From positions 15,677,883 through 15,741,882 of the forward strand of contig NC_092808.1 of assembly GCF_040954645.1 (NCBI RefSeq): 64,000 bases of DNA, read 5' to 3'. The translations under genes and the position numbers were made by a program. The notes under the pieces are model-generated. The model worked only from the letters and a program-made list of their open reading frames with translations. It had not been told where the DNA came from and did not search any database. This DNA comes from Diabrotica undecimpunctata. Lineage: Eukaryota; Arthropoda; Insecta; Coleoptera; Chrysomelidae. Positions 5,421 to 61,011 of the stretch are shown one piece after another. Every line of letters starts with the position of its first letter. Position 1 is the stretch's first letter.

Positions 5421-6058
5421 TGTTTTGGTGTTTTGTTTAGTGATGGGTGTTTGTTTCTTTATTACTATAGTTTTTCATCGGATGGAAATTTGTTTTTTAA
5501 TGAAAATATTGTTACTGGTAGATCTGCATTTTAAAAATGTTTTACTCTTCTCCCTATAATGGCCTCTGTAATATTTTTTAATGTATTGTTAATAATTTTG
5601 AAGAATATTTTATAAATTTCATTTAATAGACTGGTACCTCTATAGTTTTAGCAATTACTTATTACCAAAAAGTCAGCTTGTTTTAACACATGAGTGCCAT
5701 ACCAGACCAACATAGCCTCAACATTTATAAAACAAATTATTTAACAGCTAAACATCTTATTTTATGTTTTGTGGAAAATACACCTGAGAATTTTCTCTTG
5801 TTATCAAACTGAAACCAGTTACAGAACATATTTAAGACATAAAATAAAATAATATGTGGCAATTTAGCAATAATTTTCAGTTTAATACTTAAACTTGAAA
5901 CACCTTTTGCCTGTTGTTTTTAAGTACACATGTTTTAATTTGTTTCTTTTTTCAGTAGCATCAATTACTTGATTTTAATACTAATGAAATTATTGCAACT
6001 CTTTTTAAAGAAGATTTTCATACTTTCATTCTGAGTGTCACTAACTAGCAATTAGTTA
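5421..6058. other. Intergenic, nothing recognised
   Basis: AT-rich and without a supported frame. The 3' UTR of the minus-strand gene at 6059-7368 probably lies here. Confidence 0.5.
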
Positions 6059-7368
6059 CTAAAGTAAATGAAATATTTTCACAGTAAGCTTAAGAATTTT
6101 AGAAAATATTTCTGCCCCCTTGACTAAACTGATTGTTTGATGGTATTTAACAGTGTAAGTATCTATGTCATTAGATTTACTTTGGATAAATAGTTGTTTT
6201 TTTAAATCTCTAGGTATACTTAATTCTTCAGAATTATTAAACATGCTTTTTCCTTCTATCTTTTAATATAAAAGATGCTTTGCATTTTTTAACATTATTA
6301 AAAATTATGTTTTACTATTTTTTCCTTTAAATATATTTTACTAATATTAGTTGCACCAAGTGCTAGATGTGACAATGCTAACATAGATTTTTTAACTAAC
6401 AAGAGACTGTACTACAGCTGTTATTAACATATACTTGATATTTTTCTATGACTCACCTACAAATTTAGTGTTAGACACATTATCTTCTTCATCTGAAGCA
6501 TTAAAAGTGTTCTGCAATGCTTCAAGAACCTCATGTGGCAGATCTTCAATCTTAATTCCCATATCTGGCATAATAGAATTGATCCATTCTGTTGATTCTG
6601 TTACATTAGGAGTTTTCATCTGTACATTCCTTAAAGCTCTTGATATTTCAAGCCTCTTCTGTTTAAGAATTTGATGAATGGCTTCATCATACACAGATGT
6701 ACTAGTACTTATCAAAGTTTTCTTTCTTCGATCATTGAGATTACTTAAATGGTTCATGATTTTATAATGAATTTCGTCCACATTATAGCTGACAGCTTTT
6801 TGATTTATATTATCACTTGTGTCAATTGTATCAGTGGTTTGTTTGTATACGTTTTCACTCAACTGTATATTGGAAGCTTTGGACAATGTTGATTCAACTA
6901 CACAAAGACTTTTAGTTCTTCTTCTTTCATTGGATATTTTTGAGTTTTGATTAATTGAAGCTTCCATGGGCATGTTTGCATCATTTTTAAGTGGAATAAT
7001 GTTTTCGTCTGGACTTAATAAGTGACGCATTATTATGGCACTAGTCTTTTGTATTTTCTGAGACATGTATTCTTCACTACCCTCCATGGGAGATGCAGGC
7101 CTTGACTTTCTTTTCCATTTATATTTAGTTTTGGGCACTTTTTCTTGTCGGTAATAATGTTTTTTAAACGTATAATCATCTTCTGGCCTATAACAAAGTA
7201 ATCAATAATAATAAAAAGACGGTGTTAAAAATAATTATAATAAAAGGTCCTAATAATAATACCCTACCGAAATCTTCCGTTGTAGGGATAAAAATACCGG
7301 CGCTTGTAGGGAGAATGATTCCTTAACGGTCTTTTGGTAAAATTTTGACTTGTACTATTAGTTTCCAT
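6059..7368 (-). CDS. Unrecognised three-exon host gene
   Basis: The exons on the minus strand are 7368-7268, 7187-6457 and 6255-6059. The donors are GTAGGG and GTGAGT and the acceptors are TTATAG and AGATAG. Phases agree at both junctions (2 then 1), and the frame runs from ATG at 7368 to TAG at 6059, about 342 codons. The N-terminus is rich in Arg, Lys and Tyr (METNSTSQNFTKRP, then a KWKRKSR stretch), which suggests a nuclear or RNA-associated protein. The middle is polar and low in complexity. A helical block DEIHYKIMNHLSNLNDRRKK and a following QKRLEISRALRNV look like the conserved part. I do not recognise the family. The last exon has weaker coding character than the other two and could end differently. 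Confidence 0.7.
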
Positions 7369-49349: not shown

Positions 49350-49353
49350 GTAG

Positions 49354-49753
49354 TGTTACGATAAATATATACTGGCCTAAATATATGATGACTAATAATT
49401 CTGTTTTGTTGTAGAAATTTGGCGAAGGATCTAGGTTCAAATTATGGTGAATCCTCCAAAACTAGATGCTTCTCGATTTTTCGATGCAAGACAATGCGAT
49501 CTTTCGATGCTGTTCTAGTATATCAGGATTTCGTATATAAATACAACATTTTTGTATGGAGGGCCAGTTAATAAAGAAGATTCGCGCTCGTGATATTATT
49601 GTTACGCTCGCCTACTAATAAATTATTGTATATGTAGTGATAAATAAACTTATATAAATTATCGTGCCTTTTAATAAATTAAAGTAGGAACAAGATAATA
49701 AATTAGTAAAGACATTATAAATTAAAGACATAACAATTAATAAATTCACAACA
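49354..49753 (+). repeat. 5' LTR
   Basis: TGTTACG at the start and CACAACA at the end. A TATA-like TATATAAATA lies at 49534-49543. A primer-binding-like TGGTGTCAGAGTGAG begins at 49756, 2 nt inside the LTR edge. Confidence 0.97.
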
Positions 49754-49829
49754 AATGGTGTCAGAGTGAGATCGAACATAAATTAGACTTATAATAATAA
49801 TACAAGTGAATATAAAATAAATTGTGAAA

Positions 49830-51077
49830 ATGGCTACGATTTATGAGCTGACAGTGACTAATTTAAGAAGACATCTTGAAGACAGAGAATTAGCTTCTAC
49901 CGGAAAAAAGGCTGAGTTAGTCCAACGACTAAAGAACGCTTTGCTAGAAGAAGGACTAGATCCAGAGACTTATATATTTGAAGATGCTGTCCTCTCGTCG
50001 ATTTCGAAAGTGTCTTCTGATGTAGCCAAAGTTTCCGGCGACATCGCATCATTGGAGAACAAAGTATCCGGCGACATCGCTTCTTTAGAAAGCAAAGTTT
50101 CTAACGAGATTTCTTCTCTGGAAAGCAAAGTTTCTGCTAACATCTCTAAAGTCACTTCTGAAATATCTGCTCTTGACGATAGAGTGTCTTCGCTAAAAAA
50201 CCAAGTTGCTGCCGATAAGTTGGCCTTCGAAGAAAAGATTAAAGAGATGGAAAGGAAGATGGAAGAAACAGGGACAGCAGAGAGAGGTAACAATCCGATT
50301 ACAGTGGAGATAAAAGAAGACGAGACGAAATTTAAGTTGGAGACACGGCCGAAATTTGAAGGAAGTGGAGGTTCTATTCATGTTAAAGTCCCAACTTTCG
50401 ACGGAAAATCATCATGGAACAACTACATGAAACAGTTCGAATCAGCCGCAAGAGCAAATGGATGGTCTGAAAAAGAAAAGGCTGTAAACCTGACTATTGC
50501 TCTTCGAGGAGATGCCTTAGATGTGCTTCAGACCATAGCCGTAGAGGAGACCGATGATTTCGAACAACTGAAGAAGAGGTTAAATATGCGATATGGCCAC
50601 GAACATTTGGAGCATGTATATCAGTCACAGCTTAAAAATCGTAGACAGAAGAAAGATGAGGCTCTTCAAGAATATGAGGTAGATATTGCCAGATTAGTAC
50701 GATATGCTTATCCAACAGCTCCCGAAGACATGATGGAAAAATTGGCCGTTCAAACGTTTATTGATGGTCTTCGTGATCATGAAATGCAGAGAACACTGCG
50801 ATTAGCTCGTCACAAGACGCTGGTTGATGTCCTATCCGCCGCCCTCGAATACGAGTCAGCTACGCAGGCCTCTGGCGGGTACAGTAAAGTTAGGACTGTA
50901 AAAGAGGAAGGAGATGAAGATAAACTTGACCAGCTCGTTAATATGATGAAAAGCATGACATACAAGAAAACGAAGACCATCAGATGCTGGAATTGTGGCG
51001 AAATAGGACACGTACGAAGCTCCTGTAAGCACCCTAGGTACGACGCAAATCAAGAAACTCACCATCAGGAAAACTAG
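49830..51077 (+). CDS. gag: Gag of the Gypsy element, with N-terminal SAP domain
   Basis: ATG at 49830 gives about 415 aa; an in-frame GTG 6 nt upstream is unlikely as a start. Residues about 3-37 form a SAP motif (ELTVTNLRRHLEDRELASTG then KKAELVQRLKNAL), a helix-extended-helix DNA/chromatin-binding fold. A repetitive coiled coil follows (about 55-150) built from near-identical units such as SGDIASLENKV and SNEISSLESKV. The middle, VPTFDGKSSWNNYMKQFESA and ALQEYEVDIARLVRYAYP, is the Gypsy capsid. A C-x2-C-x4-H-x4-C knuckle (CWNCGEIGHVRSSC, Cys at about residue 386) closes the protein. It binds genomic RNA and forms the particle; the SAP could add nuclear or chromatin targeting, which is inference. 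Confidence 0.93.
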   Translation: MATIYELTVTNLRRHLEDRELASTGKKAELVQRLKNALLEEGLDPETYIFEDAVLSSISKVSSDVAKVSGDIASLENKVSGDIASLESKVSNEISSLESKVSANISKVTSEISALDDRVSSLKNQVAADKLAFEEKIKEMERKMEETGTAERGNNPITVEIKEDETKFKLETRPKFEGSGGSIHVKVPTFDGKSSWNNYMKQFESAARANGWSEKEKAVNLTIALRGDALDVLQTIAVEETDDFEQLKKRLNMRYGHEHLEHVYQSQLKNRRQKKDEALQEYEVDIARLVRYAYPTAPEDMMEKLAVQTFIDGLRDHEMQRTLRLARHKTLVDVLSAALEYESATQASGGYSKVRTVKEEGDEDKLDQLVNMMKSMTYKKTKTIRCWNCGEIGHVRSSCKHPRYDANQETHHQEN

Positions 51078-53350
51078 AACGGGTCAGCCTTAGGGGGGCA
51101 GCTTCGACCCAAAACTTTTCCAAAGACCCTCTCATACTAATAGCTTCTTTGAAATGTCGTGAAGATAGTGTATATGTAGATGGAGACATAAATGGTAAAA
51201 AGCATACGTTGTTGGTGGATACCGGAGCGACCAGAACCATTATACGCCCGACAGTTATAAACAGCCGAAAGAAACTGTTACCAACGAGGTTACGACTTCG
51301 GACCGCTACAGGTGAAAATGCCAACATTCATGGAGAAATCCAGGTACAATTGGGAATCGGGGCAGAAAAGTTTGTCCATACTGTTATAGTTGCTGACATC
51401 GAAGAGGATGTTATATTAGGAATGGACGTAATGAATATGCATGGATTCCAATTGGATTTTAAGAATAAGGTAATCAAAGTTGGCAACGAGGAGGTATTTC
51501 TCCATCCACATAATGACAACACTGTGCAAGCAGCCATTACAGAAGATACAGTCGTGCCTGCGAGAAGCGAAACGATCATAGTAGCGCGACTACAGGGAAT
51601 TGTAGACGAAGGGAGACCTGTTATGATGGAGCCTTGGAACCACGACGATGAGGTTGGCCGTGGAATCATAATTGGAAAGGAATTGGTGACTTCGGCTAAA
51701 GAAATTCCTGTGAGACTTATCAATGTCAACGACTACCCAGTGACCATAAAGAAAGAGACAAAAGTAGGAACTTGTGTACCTGTGACATCCATAATTCGTC
51801 AGGCGACAACATCTGATAATTCCAACGACAAATTCGACCAAATGGTTGCAGTTGCAGGACAGTCTCTAAATCAGATGGAGAAAAGGAAATTAAGGGAATT
51901 TCTTCGGCAGTATCGTGATATTTTCGTACCGAAAGGAGGAAAGACGGGAAGAACTACCGTTGTTAAGCATAAAATTGATACTGGTAATGCTAAGCCAATT
52001 CGTCAAACAGCTCGACGATTACCACAGGCGAAGAGAGAGGAAGCTGAAACGATTGTTCAGGAAATGAAGAAAGACGGGGTGATAGAACCTTCTACGAGTC
52101 CATGGGTCTCTCCGGTGGTCCTGGTTAAGAAGAAAGACGGAACGACGAGGTTCTGTGTGGATTACCGTTTGCTGAACAACGTTACCAAGAAAGATAGTTA
52201 TCCTCTGCCTCGGATCGATGACACATTGGACACATTGGCTGGAAGTAAATTGTTTTCTACTTTAGATTTGAAGTCTGGATACTGGCAGGTAGAAATGGAC
52301 CCAGTCGATAAAGAAAAGACAGCCTTCACCACAGGATCTGGATTGTGGCAATTCAACGTTATGCCATTTGGACTTTGTAATGCTCCTGCGACATTTGAGA
52401 GGCTTATGGAAAATGTGTTGAGAGGGTTATCTTGGAAAACATGCCTGGTTTATTTAGATGACATAATCGTCTTGGGGGAGACATTCGAAGATCATTTGAG
52501 GAATTTAGAAAACGTTTTTAATCGACTTAAAGCTGCCCAATTGATGCTAAACCCCAAGAAGTGCCAGCTATTTCAAGGTAAAGTCAATTATCTGGGTCAT
52601 ATAGTCAGTAAAGAAGGAGTGGCCGTGGATAAGGGAAAAATCGATTCCATTAAGGAATGGCCAAAACCAACTGACAAACATCAAGTGAGAAGTTTTCTTG
52701 GACTATGTACTTACTACCGGAGGTTTATTAAGAAGTTTGCAGATATCGCTAAGCCATTAACGCGACTTACAGAGGAAGCAAGAGAATACCGCTGGGATAT
52801 AGACTGCCAAAATGCCTTTGAAACGTTGAAAAAGCATTTAATAACAGCACCAATTTTGGGGTATCCATTGCCAGAAGGAGAGTTCATCTTAGATACGGAT
52901 GCAAGTAACGTGGGAATTGGAGGAGTGCTGTCTCAGATTCAAGGAGGACAGGAACGAGTCCTCGGATATTTTAGTAAAGTCCTTTCAAAACCTGAGCGGA
53001 ATTATTGTGTCACGAGAAGAGAACTTCTGGCAGTAGTGAAATCAGTAGAGCACTTCTATCAATACCTCTATGGAAGGAAGTTTTTAATCCGAACCGACCA
53101 TGCCGCCCTTAAGTGGTTGATGCAGTTTAAGAATCCAGAGGGTCAGATAGCCAGGTGGATCGAACGACTCCAAGAATACGATTTTAAGATTGAGCACCGA
53201 GCCGTAGTTAGCCACAGAAACGCTGATTCTCTTTCCAGAAGGCCATGCCCAGCAGAGTGTCCTCACTGCAACAAAACGGAATCCAAGGAAGCAGCAGTGC
53301 TAAGAACGACGATTGTCAACGACGACTGGACGCCTACTAAGATAAGGTAA
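51038..53350 (+). CDS. pol: Pol, first part: protease, reverse transcriptase, RNase H
   Basis: The frame is open from 51038, overlaps the last 40 nt of gag and is displaced by -1, so expression by -1 frameshifting is likely; a GGAAAAC run sits directly before the gag stop. Domains in order: aspartic protease with LLVDTGATRTII; RT with FCVDYRLLNNVTKKDSYPLP, motif B GLWQFNVMPFGLCNAPATFE and catalytic YLDDIIV at about 52454; RNase H with LDTDASNVGIGGVLSQ and RTDHAALKWL. A chromodomain is absent. The frame stops at TAA 53348-53350, after which the same frame continues openly into integrase. Confidence 0.93.
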   Translation, partial: VRRKSRNSPSGKLERVSLRGAASTQNFSKDPLILIASLKCREDSVYVDGDINGKKHTLLVDTGATRTIIRPTVINSRKKLLPTRLRLRTATGENANIHGEIQVQLGIGAEKFVHTVIVADIEEDVILGMDVMNMHGFQLDFKNKVIKVGNEEVFLHPHNDNTVQAAITEDTVVPARSETIIVARLQGIVDEGRPVMMEPWNHDDEVGRGIIIGKELVTSAKEIPVRLINVNDYPVTIKKETKVGTCVPVTSIIRQATTSDNSNDKFDQMVAVAGQSLNQMEKRKLREFLRQYRDIFVPKGGKTGRTTVVKHKIDTGNAKPIRQTARRLPQAKREEAETIVQEMKKDGVIEPSTSPWVSPVVLVKKKDGTTRFCVDYRLLNNVTKKDSYPLPRIDDTLDTLAGSKLFSTLDLKSGYWQVEMDPVDKEKTAFTTGSGLWQFNVMPFGLCNAPATFERLMENVLRGLSWKTCLVYLDDIIVLGETFEDHLRNLENVFNRLKAAQLMLNPKKCQLFQGKVNYLGHIVSKEGVAVDKGKIDSIKEWPKPTDKHQVRSFLGLCTYYRRFIKKFADIAKPLTRLTEEAREYRWDIDCQNAFETLKKHLITAPILGYPLPEGEFILDTDASNVGIGGVLSQIQGGQERVLGYFSKVLSKPERNYCVTRRELLAVVKSVEHFYQYLYGRKFLIRTDHAALKWLMQFKNPEGQIARWIERLQEYDFKIEHRAVVSHRNADSLSRRPCPAECPHCNKTESKEAAVLRTTIVNDDWTPTKIR

Positions 53351-55306
53351 GAACAAGAGAGAGATCCAGTTATACAGAAAATCCGAAAATGGAAAGAGGA
53401 AAACCGTCGACCACCTTGGCAGGAAATATCAAACCTATGCTCAGTAGTTAAGACGTATTGGGCCCAGTGGGACTCATTTATCATCGAAGATGGCTTGCTT
53501 AAACGAGTCCTGGAAAATGATGACGGTTCAGAGAAGAGAAGACAGTTGGTGATCCCAAAGAGCAGAATAGCCGAAGTACTTCGTCAGTTACACGACAGTC
53601 CATCGGGAGGGCATTTTGGTGTAAGGAAAACCCTTCAGCGAATTCGGGAACGGTTTTATTGGATGAACAGTTCCGACGACGTGAAAGACTGGTGTAAGAA
53701 ATGTACTATTTGTGCTACGAGTAACGGGCCTCACCGGAAAAGGAGAGCTCCTATGAGACAGTATAATGTTGGAAGCCCGTTTGAAAGAATAGCTTTGGAC
53801 ATTGCAGGGCCATTTCCAGAAAGTGAAAATGGGGGCAAGTACATGTTGGTAGTAATGGATTACTTCACTAAGTGGGTCGAGATTTACGCACTTCCAGACC
53901 AGAAGGCCGCCACCGTTGCAGATAAGTTGATCCAAGAATATATCAGCCGATTTGGAGTGCCTTTGGAGATCCATAGTGACCAAGGCAGGAACTTCGAAAG
54001 TGATCTATTCCAAGGAATATGTGATAGACTAGGCATGAAGAAAACAAGAACTACCGCGTATCATCCGCAATCGGATGGTATGGTAGAACGAATGAATAGG
54101 ACAGTTGGCAAGTATTTGACAAAGATGGTGTCCGATCATCAGCGAGACTGGGACCAATACCTTCCGTTCTTCACAATGGCCTACAGATCTGCTGTTAACG
54201 AATCAACGGGCCAGACACCAGCCAGAGTCCTATTCGGACGCGAAATGCGACTACCTTGTGATCTAGAATTTGGGTGTCGACCTGGAGAAGATGTAGCAGG
54301 TGAAGATTATGTGATCGAATTACGAAGAAAAATGGACGATGTACATGAGTTGGTCCGTTCCCACCTTCAGATCGCTAGCGACCGAATGAAGAAACGGTAC
54401 GATACACAAGCCGAAAAGGGTTGCTTTAAGAAGAACGACAAAGTATGGCTGTATAATCCCAAGAAGCGAAAAGGTTGTTCTCCCAAATTGCAGCAGTTTT
54501 GGGAAGGTCCATACCTCATCATGGAGAAGATCAACGATGTCATCTACCGAATAAGCAAGATTCCGAGGGGAAAGCCGATGATAGTACACCATAACCGGTT
54601 GGCATCTTTCGAAGGTGACCACGACGTAGATGAAGAAGTGGAAGTAAACCAAGTCCAAGATGTGTTTGACCTCACGTTTGAGGAATTCATGGGTGCCTAT
54701 GGAGGTACCGGTAAAGCGAGACATGGTGTTACCACTGAAGAAAAGCAAGATCTACTCGAGCTCCCCGATGACTACTCGCTGGCCCTTACCATCCCGGCCA
54801 GTATCAAAGACGCACCAGGGTTGGCATCCGTCTTTCGAAGGAAGTTTGGTCGAGTTGCAGAACTTCAATGCCAAGTGCCAGCTCCCGGTAAAACCTTGAA
54901 ACTCCAAGATGCATCACGTTACCTTTTCTACCTGGTAACAAAAGACACTGCCCGTGACCAACCTACCTACCGAGATGTATGGGAAGCCTTACTTCAATTG
55001 AGAGGGCACGTACTAGAGTCCGACGTGCAAAAGTTAGCCATGCCAAAGTTGGAGTGCCGCCAATTAGATTGGAGGGTTATCCGAAATATGGTGGAGGAGA
55101 TCTTTAAAGACACCGAAGTCCAGGTGTTAGTCTGTTGCAATCCGCTAAGTACCTTGTGCGGAGAGAAAACCGTCCCTTGTCATTTTTATACAACTGGAAG
55201 TTGTAAAAGAGGGTCCAGTTGCCGATACCAGCATACAGTTCCGGTTCCAGTCCCGACAAGGTTCCAGGAGGAACCATCTTTTAAGAGGGGGGCAATGTTA
55301 CGATAA
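53351..55306 (+). CDS. pol: Pol, second part: integrase, macrodomain, CCCH zinc finger
   Basis: Same frame as the preceding part, after one TAA. Counting from codon 53495: integrase H2C2 finger (H33/H40, C70, C73), catalytic triad D102, D162, E198 with 35 residues between the last two, and a C-terminal domain up to VHHNRL at about 365. Residues about 421-548 match the TARG1/OARD1 macrodomain family: YSLALTIP, then GLASVFRRKFGRVAEL, SRYLFYLVTK, QPTYRDVWEALLQLRGH and VQKLAMPKLECRQLDW. The Lys of VTK (483) corresponds to the catalytic Lys of TARG1, but the GCGLD loop with its catalytic Asp is shortened to ECRQLDW. Residues 562-580 form a C-x7-C-x5-C-x3-H finger. The stop codon lies inside the 3' LTR. 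Confidence 0.92.
   Translation, partial: EQERDPVIQKIRKWKEENRRPPWQEISNLCSVVKTYWAQWDSFIIEDGLLKRVLENDDGSEKRRQLVIPKSRIAEVLRQLHDSPSGGHFGVRKTLQRIRERFYWMNSSDDVKDWCKKCTICATSNGPHRKRRAPMRQYNVGSPFERIALDIAGPFPESENGGKYMLVVMDYFTKWVEIYALPDQKAATVADKLIQEYISRFGVPLEIHSDQGRNFESDLFQGICDRLGMKKTRTTAYHPQSDGMVERMNRTVGKYLTKMVSDHQRDWDQYLPFFTMAYRSAVNESTGQTPARVLFGREMRLPCDLEFGCRPGEDVAGEDYVIELRRKMDDVHELVRSHLQIASDRMKKRYDTQAEKGCFKKNDKVWLYNPKKRKGCSPKLQQFWEGPYLIMEKINDVIYRISKIPRGKPMIVHHNRLASFEGDHDVDEEVEVNQVQDVFDLTFEEFMGAYGGTGKARHGVTTEEKQDLLELPDDYSLALTIPASIKDAPGLASVFRRKFGRVAELQCQVPAPGKTLKLQDASRYLFYLVTKDTARDQPTYRDVWEALLQLRGHVLESDVQKLAMPKLECRQLDWRVIRNMVEEIFKDTEVQVLVCCNPLSTLCGEKTVPCHFYTTGSCKRGSSCRYQHTVPVPVPTRFQEEPSFKRGAMLR
55281..55295 (+). 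promoter_or_regulatory. Polypurine tract of the Gypsy element
   Basis: AAGAGGGGGGCAA abuts the 3' LTR, the expected primer site for plus-strand DNA. It lies within the pol reading frame. Confidence 0.85.
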
Positions 55307-55695
55307 ATATATACTGGCCTAAATATATGATGACTAATAATTCTGTTTTGTTGTAGAAATTTGGCGAAGGATCTAGGTTCAAATTATGGTGAATCCTCCA
55401 AAACTAGATGCTTCTCGATTTTTCGATGCAAGACAATGCGATCTTTCGATGCTGTTCTAGTATATCAGGATTTCGTATATAAATACAACATTTTTGTATG
55501 GAGGGCCAGTTAATAAAGAAGATTCGCGCTCGTGATATTATTGTTACGCTCGCCTACTAATAAATTATTGTATATGTAGTGATAAATAAACTTATATAAA
55601 TTATCGTGCCTTTTAATAAATTAAAGTAGGAACAAGATAATAAATTAGTAAAGACATTATAAATTAAAGACATAACAATTAATAAATTCACAACA
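55296..55695 (+). repeat. 3' LTR
   Basis: Same length and, by base-by-base reading, same sequence as 49354-49753. Followed by the GTAG duplication. Confidence 0.97.
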
Positions 55696-55849
55696 GTAGT
55701 TTCAATTTAAGCCTCAGACCACAGCCCGGACGTTTTAACCCATTAGTGCCCAGATTATTTTTTCGCAGTTTTCAATGTGATGCTAATATTTTTTTGGGAG
55801 CAGTTTTATTAAAAAACATAAAAATAAATAAATTTACGCATTCGTGTTT

Positions 55850-56900: not shown

Positions 56901-56971
<71 letters not shown>
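56901..56971. repeat. (TA)n microsatellite
   Basis: Pure TA tract ending about 20 bp before an exon acceptor. Confidence 0.97.

Positions 56972-60946: not shown

Positions 60947-61011
<65 letters not shown>

Follow-up and report, generated by a model that had tools for sequence, protein, structure and literature searches.

A TARG1-type macrodomain and a CCCH finger joined to the integrase in a group of beetle Ty3/Gypsy-type elements

Chromodomains steer integration, and macrodomains of some RNA viruses remove ADP-ribose from proteins, countering PARP-type defence. Chromoviruses carry a chromodomain after the integrase (PMC3605345). The closest known system to the domain described here is the human terminal ADP-ribose glycohydrolase TARG1 (also called OARD1 or C6orf130; PDB 4j5r and 2eee), for which PMC6397177 places D20 at the adenine and H32, C33, S35, T83 and D125 around the distal ribose, with a GxG phosphate loop, K84 as the nucleophile and D125 hydrolysing the intermediate. 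The present study concerns a Ty3/Gypsy-type long terminal repeat (LTR) retrotransposon of the leaf beetle Diabrotica undecimpunctata, found in a stretch of 64,000 nucleotides (contig NC_092808.1, positions 15,677,883 to 15,741,882, forward strand; hereafter the window), in which the Pol frame runs on beyond the integrase into a macrodomain of TARG1 type and a CCCH zinc finger.

Like the chromoviruses, this element has an extra domain C-terminal to its integrase, but the macrodomain and CCCH finger stand in place of the chromodomain; no chromodomain is found among the Pfam matches to E<=5 in the window's tail, and by that mark the element is not a chromovirus. Set against the viral-type macrodomains found in polyproteins, the window's domain is much closer to TARG1 and lies in an LTR retroelement, behind the integrase. 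From TARG1 it differs in its setting, between an integrase to which it is fused and a CCCH finger, and in not keeping D125, the GxG loop, His32 and Ser35. The long macrodomain proteins of insects (host gene L031, 38% identical to the window's domain; P0033 of Callosobruchus; P0037 of Zophobas) are of TARG1 type as well, but have intact catalytic residues and no integrase, and fall in a separate clade. No description of a macrodomain in an LTR retrotransposon was found in the literature covered, which consisted mostly of titles and the starts of abstracts, with preprints and most subscription papers outside that coverage. Apart from this new accessory module, the element is an ordinary Gypsy element.

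The macrodomain, its copies and its active site

That the C-terminal domain of Pol is a TARG1-type macrodomain is close to certain. TARG1 outranks other macrodomains in both the sequence and the fold match, and the next-closest folds are bacterial (5m31, 5m3i and 5m3e, at 19-25% identity). A first-pass annotation, made from the letters of the window, had proposed that the Pol of a Gypsy element carries a TARG1-like macrodomain after its integrase and had named the lack of a profile match, or copies ending after the integrase, as grounds for giving the proposal up. The Pfam scan indeed returned no match of Pfam Macro to the window sequence, but a PDB profile search does match, and the fusion is kept across copies and species. 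The CCCH finger that had been read at the Pol C-terminus is likewise recognised by Pfam (Table 1), its pattern being present in 19 of the 34 proteins scanned, fragments included.

The genome searched comprises 1.74 Gb. When the tail was used as the query, the best 150 of 6,149 candidates all spanned residues 1-233 free of stops, and 116 of these sat in open frames 1,400 aa or longer; such lists of 150 hold the best-scoring of about 5,600-6,200 candidates, and their identity and stop counts lean upwards. A 600-bp gag query, chosen so that the tail plays no part in the picking, gave a second sample: from the best 40 of 2,389 candidates, full-length and with the window's own included, every second row was taken (20 of the 39 others) and read at the expected tail distance. 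The gag of these copies is all but identical to that of the window, and some of them (e.g. L114) are also in the tail-picked list. Macrodomain and finger are present in all 20 gag-picked copies, 19 being colinear and stop-free and one (L111) frameshifted; none ends after the integrase.

A query from Brassicogethes (P0019) gave 147 stop-free tails among its best 150 matches of about 5,600-6,200 candidates, and the tails of eight copies read from these matches share 39-40% identity with that of the window and represent a second family within this genome. The nearest proteins that carry an organism label are from Diabrotica virgifera: the window's family is 87% identical to P0006, and the eight copies of the second family are 83-86% identical to P0015. 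The protein collection held 192 profile matches, and among the best 120 of them 19 carry Integrase_p58_C on the same protein, those with an organism label coming from D. virgifera and Leptinotarsa (Chrysomelidae), Harmonia (Coccinellidae), and Molorchus and Aromia (Cerambycidae), all of them beetles; one further protein of those 120, P0050, has the zinc finger and core of an integrase. Among beetle elements of Ty3/Gypsy type there is a group in which this tail, a TARG1-type macrodomain and a CCCH finger, is joined to the integrase SH3 domain by a motif-bearing linker.

The 'OARD1-like' gene models P0003 and P0028, in Diabrotica and Leptinotarsa, are explained as retroelement pieces because of their tree position and, for P0028, an Integrase_p58_C match. 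In some other gene models parts of the macrodomain tail are combined with different sequence, namely P0032 of Holotrichia oblita, which has PF05225, and P0004 and P0005 of D. virgifera, the latter named tachykinin receptor; these are perhaps element insertions or gene-model errors.

In the window's macrodomain the T83 equivalent is kept and that of S35 is Pro; other pocket residues are given in Table 1. The published TARG1 pattern TKx(30,35)Px[IL]GxGxD matches 76 of the 123 proteins scanned and has no match in the window. Lys at K84, Leu for His32 and the shortened loop occur together in 53 of 53 colinear tail-picked copies, and in the gag-picked copies the shortened loop (read from the printed loop) is found in 20 of 20, the K84 position being Lys in 19 and Arg in L101. 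The first-pass annotation had linked the domain to the cleavage of ADP-ribose from proteins. With D125 and the GxG loop gone in all of these copies, that part is not supported for the window's family, which is predicted from its residues not to hydrolyse ADP-ribose by the TARG1 mechanism. Its D. virgifera member, P0006, retains the His and has not retained the loop. The second family also retains the His, and keeps the Asp but has Arg at K84 in the eight copies read; in P0015, its relative from D. virgifera, the two residues are Arg and Glu.

Across the integrase-fused rows, the K84 and D125 equivalents are both present in 12 of 23 and one or both are gone in 11, with eight of the 23 being fragments that have no integrase Pfam match and were assigned by tree, linker or tail (P0002, P0003, P0017, P0019, P0024, P0029, P0032 and P0039), and with two of the 12 intact rows (P0011 and P0021) sharing identical domains. 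P0017 matches TARG1 at E=2.3e-31 and has an intact GCGLD. Outside the group all 17 rows carry both catalytic residues, which favours losses over gains within it; on a tree built without those columns the catalytic state of the integrase-fused rows changes at least three times, a count that by its nature cannot separate gain from loss.

Phylogenetic position and origin

The integrase-fused macrodomains form one clade, with support of 100/94 (22 rows, the planthopper protein P0040 inside) in a tree of 85 rows, from which 37 of the 122 extracted domains were excluded as fragments or near-duplicates, and of 99/97 (23 rows plus P0040) and 100/98 (20 rows, P0040 counted) in others. The clade is nested in the eukaryote-type TARG1 clade (100/99), outside the clade of beetle host genes and outside the long insect host proteins. 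The approximately unbiased (AU) test did not reject a clade uniting these domains with four beetle host rows (p=0.127) and did reject one with 13 insect host rows (p=0.026). Capture of the macrodomain from an insect host, as had been suggested at first, is possible but unproven on these trees, in which the clade is not nested in the beetle host genes. A recent capture from the beetle's own gene was rejected for that lack of nesting, with the AU values given above.

A bacterial or phage origin was also considered. With few bacterial-type rows only, the clade adjoined P0091, P0097 and P0116 (95/85); with 15 bacterial rows it shifted into the eukaryote-type clade (100/99), and a bacterial origin is therefore not claimed. 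The bacterial row L086, which is frameshifted, was removed after that tree. P0097 has 25 relatives among genome contigs, 24 in bacterial records and one in an archaeal record, and P0116 has relatives in 17 phage records; among the IMG/VR contigs 47 stretches fit a pattern, and none of them was a relative.

The protein P0040 (Nilaparvata lugens, 165 aa) is a planthopper 'OARD1-like' protein placed inside the beetle retroelement clade, a placement that could stem from horizontal transfer, from contamination or from an undetected element. Host gene L031 (970-3027, minus strand) encodes, in an open frame of 686 aa, a single intact TARG1-like macrodomain with repeated segments upstream; it retains the catalytic residues and clusters with Callosobruchus and other beetle genes. 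It was found by a degenerate pattern, which also gave one match in a backward-read control, and was accepted as real because of its translation and not because of the pattern count. L031 has no Pfam match at E<=0.01, and its C-terminal part, in which a likeness to a degenerate second macrodomain is seen by eye only, gave nothing below E=0.86 against solved structures.

In the aphid protein P0050 (Macrosiphum euphorbiae, 519 aa, cluster of 17), a gene model only, the macrodomain lies upstream of the H2C2 domain (174-230) and rve (246-344), a position in Pol that differs from that of the beetle clade; its catalytic residues are kept, and it stands beside the integrase-fused clade with low support (89/72 and 87/0). 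P0089 (274 aa, 14 members) has a TARG1-like macrodomain near rotifer proteins (99/93), followed by a VETLIDTGA stretch that by eye resembles the start of a retropepsin; no Pfam protease match was found at E<=10. A wider scenario would have invertebrate LTR retroelements taking up TARG1-type macrodomains more than once, after the integrase in beetles, before the integrase zinc finger in P0050 and perhaps before the protease in P0089, and using them at first, as ADP-ribosylhydrolases, to counter the host's ADP-ribosylation of their DNA, RNA or proteins, with the integrase-linked copy of leaf beetles later becoming a catalytically dead reader that guides integration. We consider this scenario rather doubtful.

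Constraint, insertion sites and possible function

Pairwise pN/pS (nonsynonymous against synonymous differences) in 19 gag-picked copies, one of the 20 being left out, was 0.25 for the macrodomain, 0.09 for the SH3 domain, 0.26 for the linker and 0.52 for the finger. The tail-picked analysis, with 53 of 60 loci used and 7 dropped, gave 0.17 for the macrodomain in each of two sets and 0.13 between them, 0.05-0.06 for the integrase core, 0.09-0.25 for the SH3 domain and 0.28-0.68 for the linker, while the finger had 0.30 within one set and 1.35 between sets; these sets are biased towards their own queries, yet linker and finger were in the same queries and scored higher. In the second family the macrodomain has a ratio of 0.18 (8 copies). 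The macrodomain is under purifying selection and is less constrained than the integrase core.

As to insertion, the LTR end was readable at 17 of 60 loci, and among the four bases downstream T stands at position 2 in 15 of these 17 and A at position 3 in all 17, with ATAT as the four bases 3' of the 3' LTR in six. A TA-centred preference is ordinary for insect Gypsy elements.

The best explanation, which we put forward tentatively and as somewhat short of probable, is that the tail is a non-catalytic binding or tethering module at the integrase C-terminus in the window's family. The group's ancestor would have acquired the module next to its integrase in the form of a TARG1-like domain still capable of catalysis, a capacity inferred because the K84 and D125 equivalents are both kept in 12 of 23 rows. 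Each of the two families in this genome would then have lost one catalytic residue, a different one each, with the domain itself remaining under purifying selection. The loss of key residues suggests that in the window's family it now binds and does not cut. Macrodomain and finger may together hold the integrase, and hence the pre-integration complex, on chromatin or nucleic acid that bears ADP-ribose or another PARP mark, a tethering that can be likened to the supposed role of chromodomains at the same place in chromoviruses. Chromatin targeting by the tail, also raised in the first-pass annotation, is possible.

Several observations weigh against this explanation. In the window's family the pocket has eroded past the point of catalysis (His32 to Leu, Ser35 to Pro, GxG phosphate loop gone), and ADP-ribose binding itself is therefore doubtful. 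The macrodomain ratio in the gag-picked copies exceeds that of the SH3 domain and is at the level of the linker, and the contrast in constraint is thereby weakened; the finger is less constrained (0.52 in the gag-picked copies, 1.35 between the tail-picked sets), and macrodomain divergence outpaces that of the integrase core, with 40-50% against 60-76% identity to five proteins. The sole insertion signal, read at 17 of 60 loci, lies in AT-rich DNA and amounts to a short preference centred on TA, which needs no tether. Relatives with the catalytic pair favour a catalytic role in those elements, and a once-only joining of the tail to the integrase would rest on the macrodomain tree.

The tail could instead be a counter-ADP-ribosylation enzyme, clearing host ADP-ribose from cDNA, RNA or proteins of the element or from chromatin, with the degraded families on the way to losing the domain. 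The retention of both residues in 12 of the 23 rows, the close TARG1 match of P0017 with its intact GCGLD, and the purifying selection on the macrodomain are all in keeping with such an enzyme, but neither the Asp nor the GxG loop is left in the window's family, Arg replaces Lys in the eight copies read of the second family, and the intact state has changed at least three times while the domain was not lost; on balance we regard it as unlikely.

CCCH fingers are often RNA-binding. The tail could accordingly be imagined as a structural or RNA-handling part of Pol (for integrase folding, multimer formation, Pol packaging or RNA binding), unrelated to ADP-ribose in the window's family. The eroded pocket with its retained fold would suit such a part, as would the extension of the tail through the rest of the frame and on into the 3' LTR. 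On the other hand, many relatives keep the full catalytic pair, because of which the ancestral role probably used it, and a purely structural or RNA-handling part seems to us fairly improbable.

A decaying passenger, that is, captured sequence drifting without function, would account for the lost pocket residues, for divergence faster than that of the integrase core and for a constraint no stronger than that of the linker in the gag-picked copies, but not for pN/pS of 0.13-0.25, for stop-free tails in 19 of 20 gag-picked copies or for the domain's persistence in elements from three families of beetles and, within one genome, in two element families, and is very improbable. An artefact, be it a chance resemblance or a single-copy fusion, which the missing Pfam Macro match would suit, has next to no probability and was ruled out by the recurrence of the tail in copies, families and species. 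A clade in which some versions of the domain are catalytically intact and others dead offers a natural experiment on the exposure of retroelements to ADP-ribosylation, and it makes testable whether an eraser of a mark can become a reader that steers integration.

Structure of the element and its surroundings

The element is Ty3/Gypsy (Metaviridae-type) by its LTRs, its target-site duplication and the Pol order of protease, reverse transcriptase, RNase H and integrase over 51038-55306. In the window copy an in-frame TAA at 53348 ends the first part of pol, and the second part resumes in the same frame, its stop codon starting at base 9 of the 3' LTR. We take the candidate primer-binding site to resemble the 3' end of tRNA-Leu, a candidate assignment. 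Gag opens with a SAP domain, and a start with a domain of DNA-binding type is, to our knowledge, unusual.

Table 1. Features of the retrotransposon in the window (positions of the window)
Feature	Position	Strand	Basis
5' target-site duplication GTAG (4 bp)	49350..49353	.	flanks of exact LTR match
5' LTR, 400 bp, TG...CA, identical to 3' LTR	49354..49753	+	exact match 400/400
candidate primer-binding site TGGTGTCAGAGTG	49756..49768	+	position directly after 5' LTR
gag frame, 418 aa	49821..51077	+	open reading frame and Pfam matches
SAP domain in gag	49848-49943	+	PF02037, 28.9 bits against cut-off 23.9
Retrotrans_gag	50493-50777	+	Pfam
CCHC knuckle in gag	50982-51032	+	Pfam
pol frame part 1: aspartic protease, reverse transcriptase, RNase H	51038..53350	+	open reading frame and Pfam
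pol frame part 2, 651 aa: integrase, linker, macrodomain, CCCH finger	53351..55306	+	open reading frame and Pfam
integrase zinc-binding domain H2C2	53552..53725	+	PF17921, E=2.1e-21
integrase catalytic core (rve)	53780..54067	+	PF00665, E=5.9e-14
integrase C-terminal SH3-like domain (Integrase_p58_C)	54506..54604	+	PF22938, E=4.6e-13
linker with conserved FxxFMxxY...GKARxGV directly before macrodomain	54677..54730	+	loose motif pattern, 23/34 proteins scanned (fragments included)
TARG1-like macrodomain	54731..55138	+	TARG1 homology, PDB profile search, predicted fold
D20 equivalent, kept	54749-54751	+	alignment to TARG1
H32 equivalent, Leu	54785-54787	+	alignment to TARG1
K84 equivalent, kept	54941-54943	+	alignment to TARG1
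GCGLD loop replaced by EC-R, two residues shorter, D125 lost	55052-55060	+	alignment to TARG1
CCCH zinc finger C-x7-C-x5-C-x3-H	55178..55234	+	PF00642, 27-29 bits, cut-off 20.5
candidate polypurine tract AAGAGGGGGG, inside pol frame	55283..55292	+	purine run just 5' of 3' LTR
3' LTR, 400 bp	55296..55695	+	exact match to 5' LTR
3' target-site duplication GTAG (4 bp)	55696..55699	.	flank of exact LTR match

Repeated ASLExKVS-like segments come after the SAP domain in Gag, and long (TA)n repeats are seen 3' of the element, at 56901-56970 and 60953-61010.
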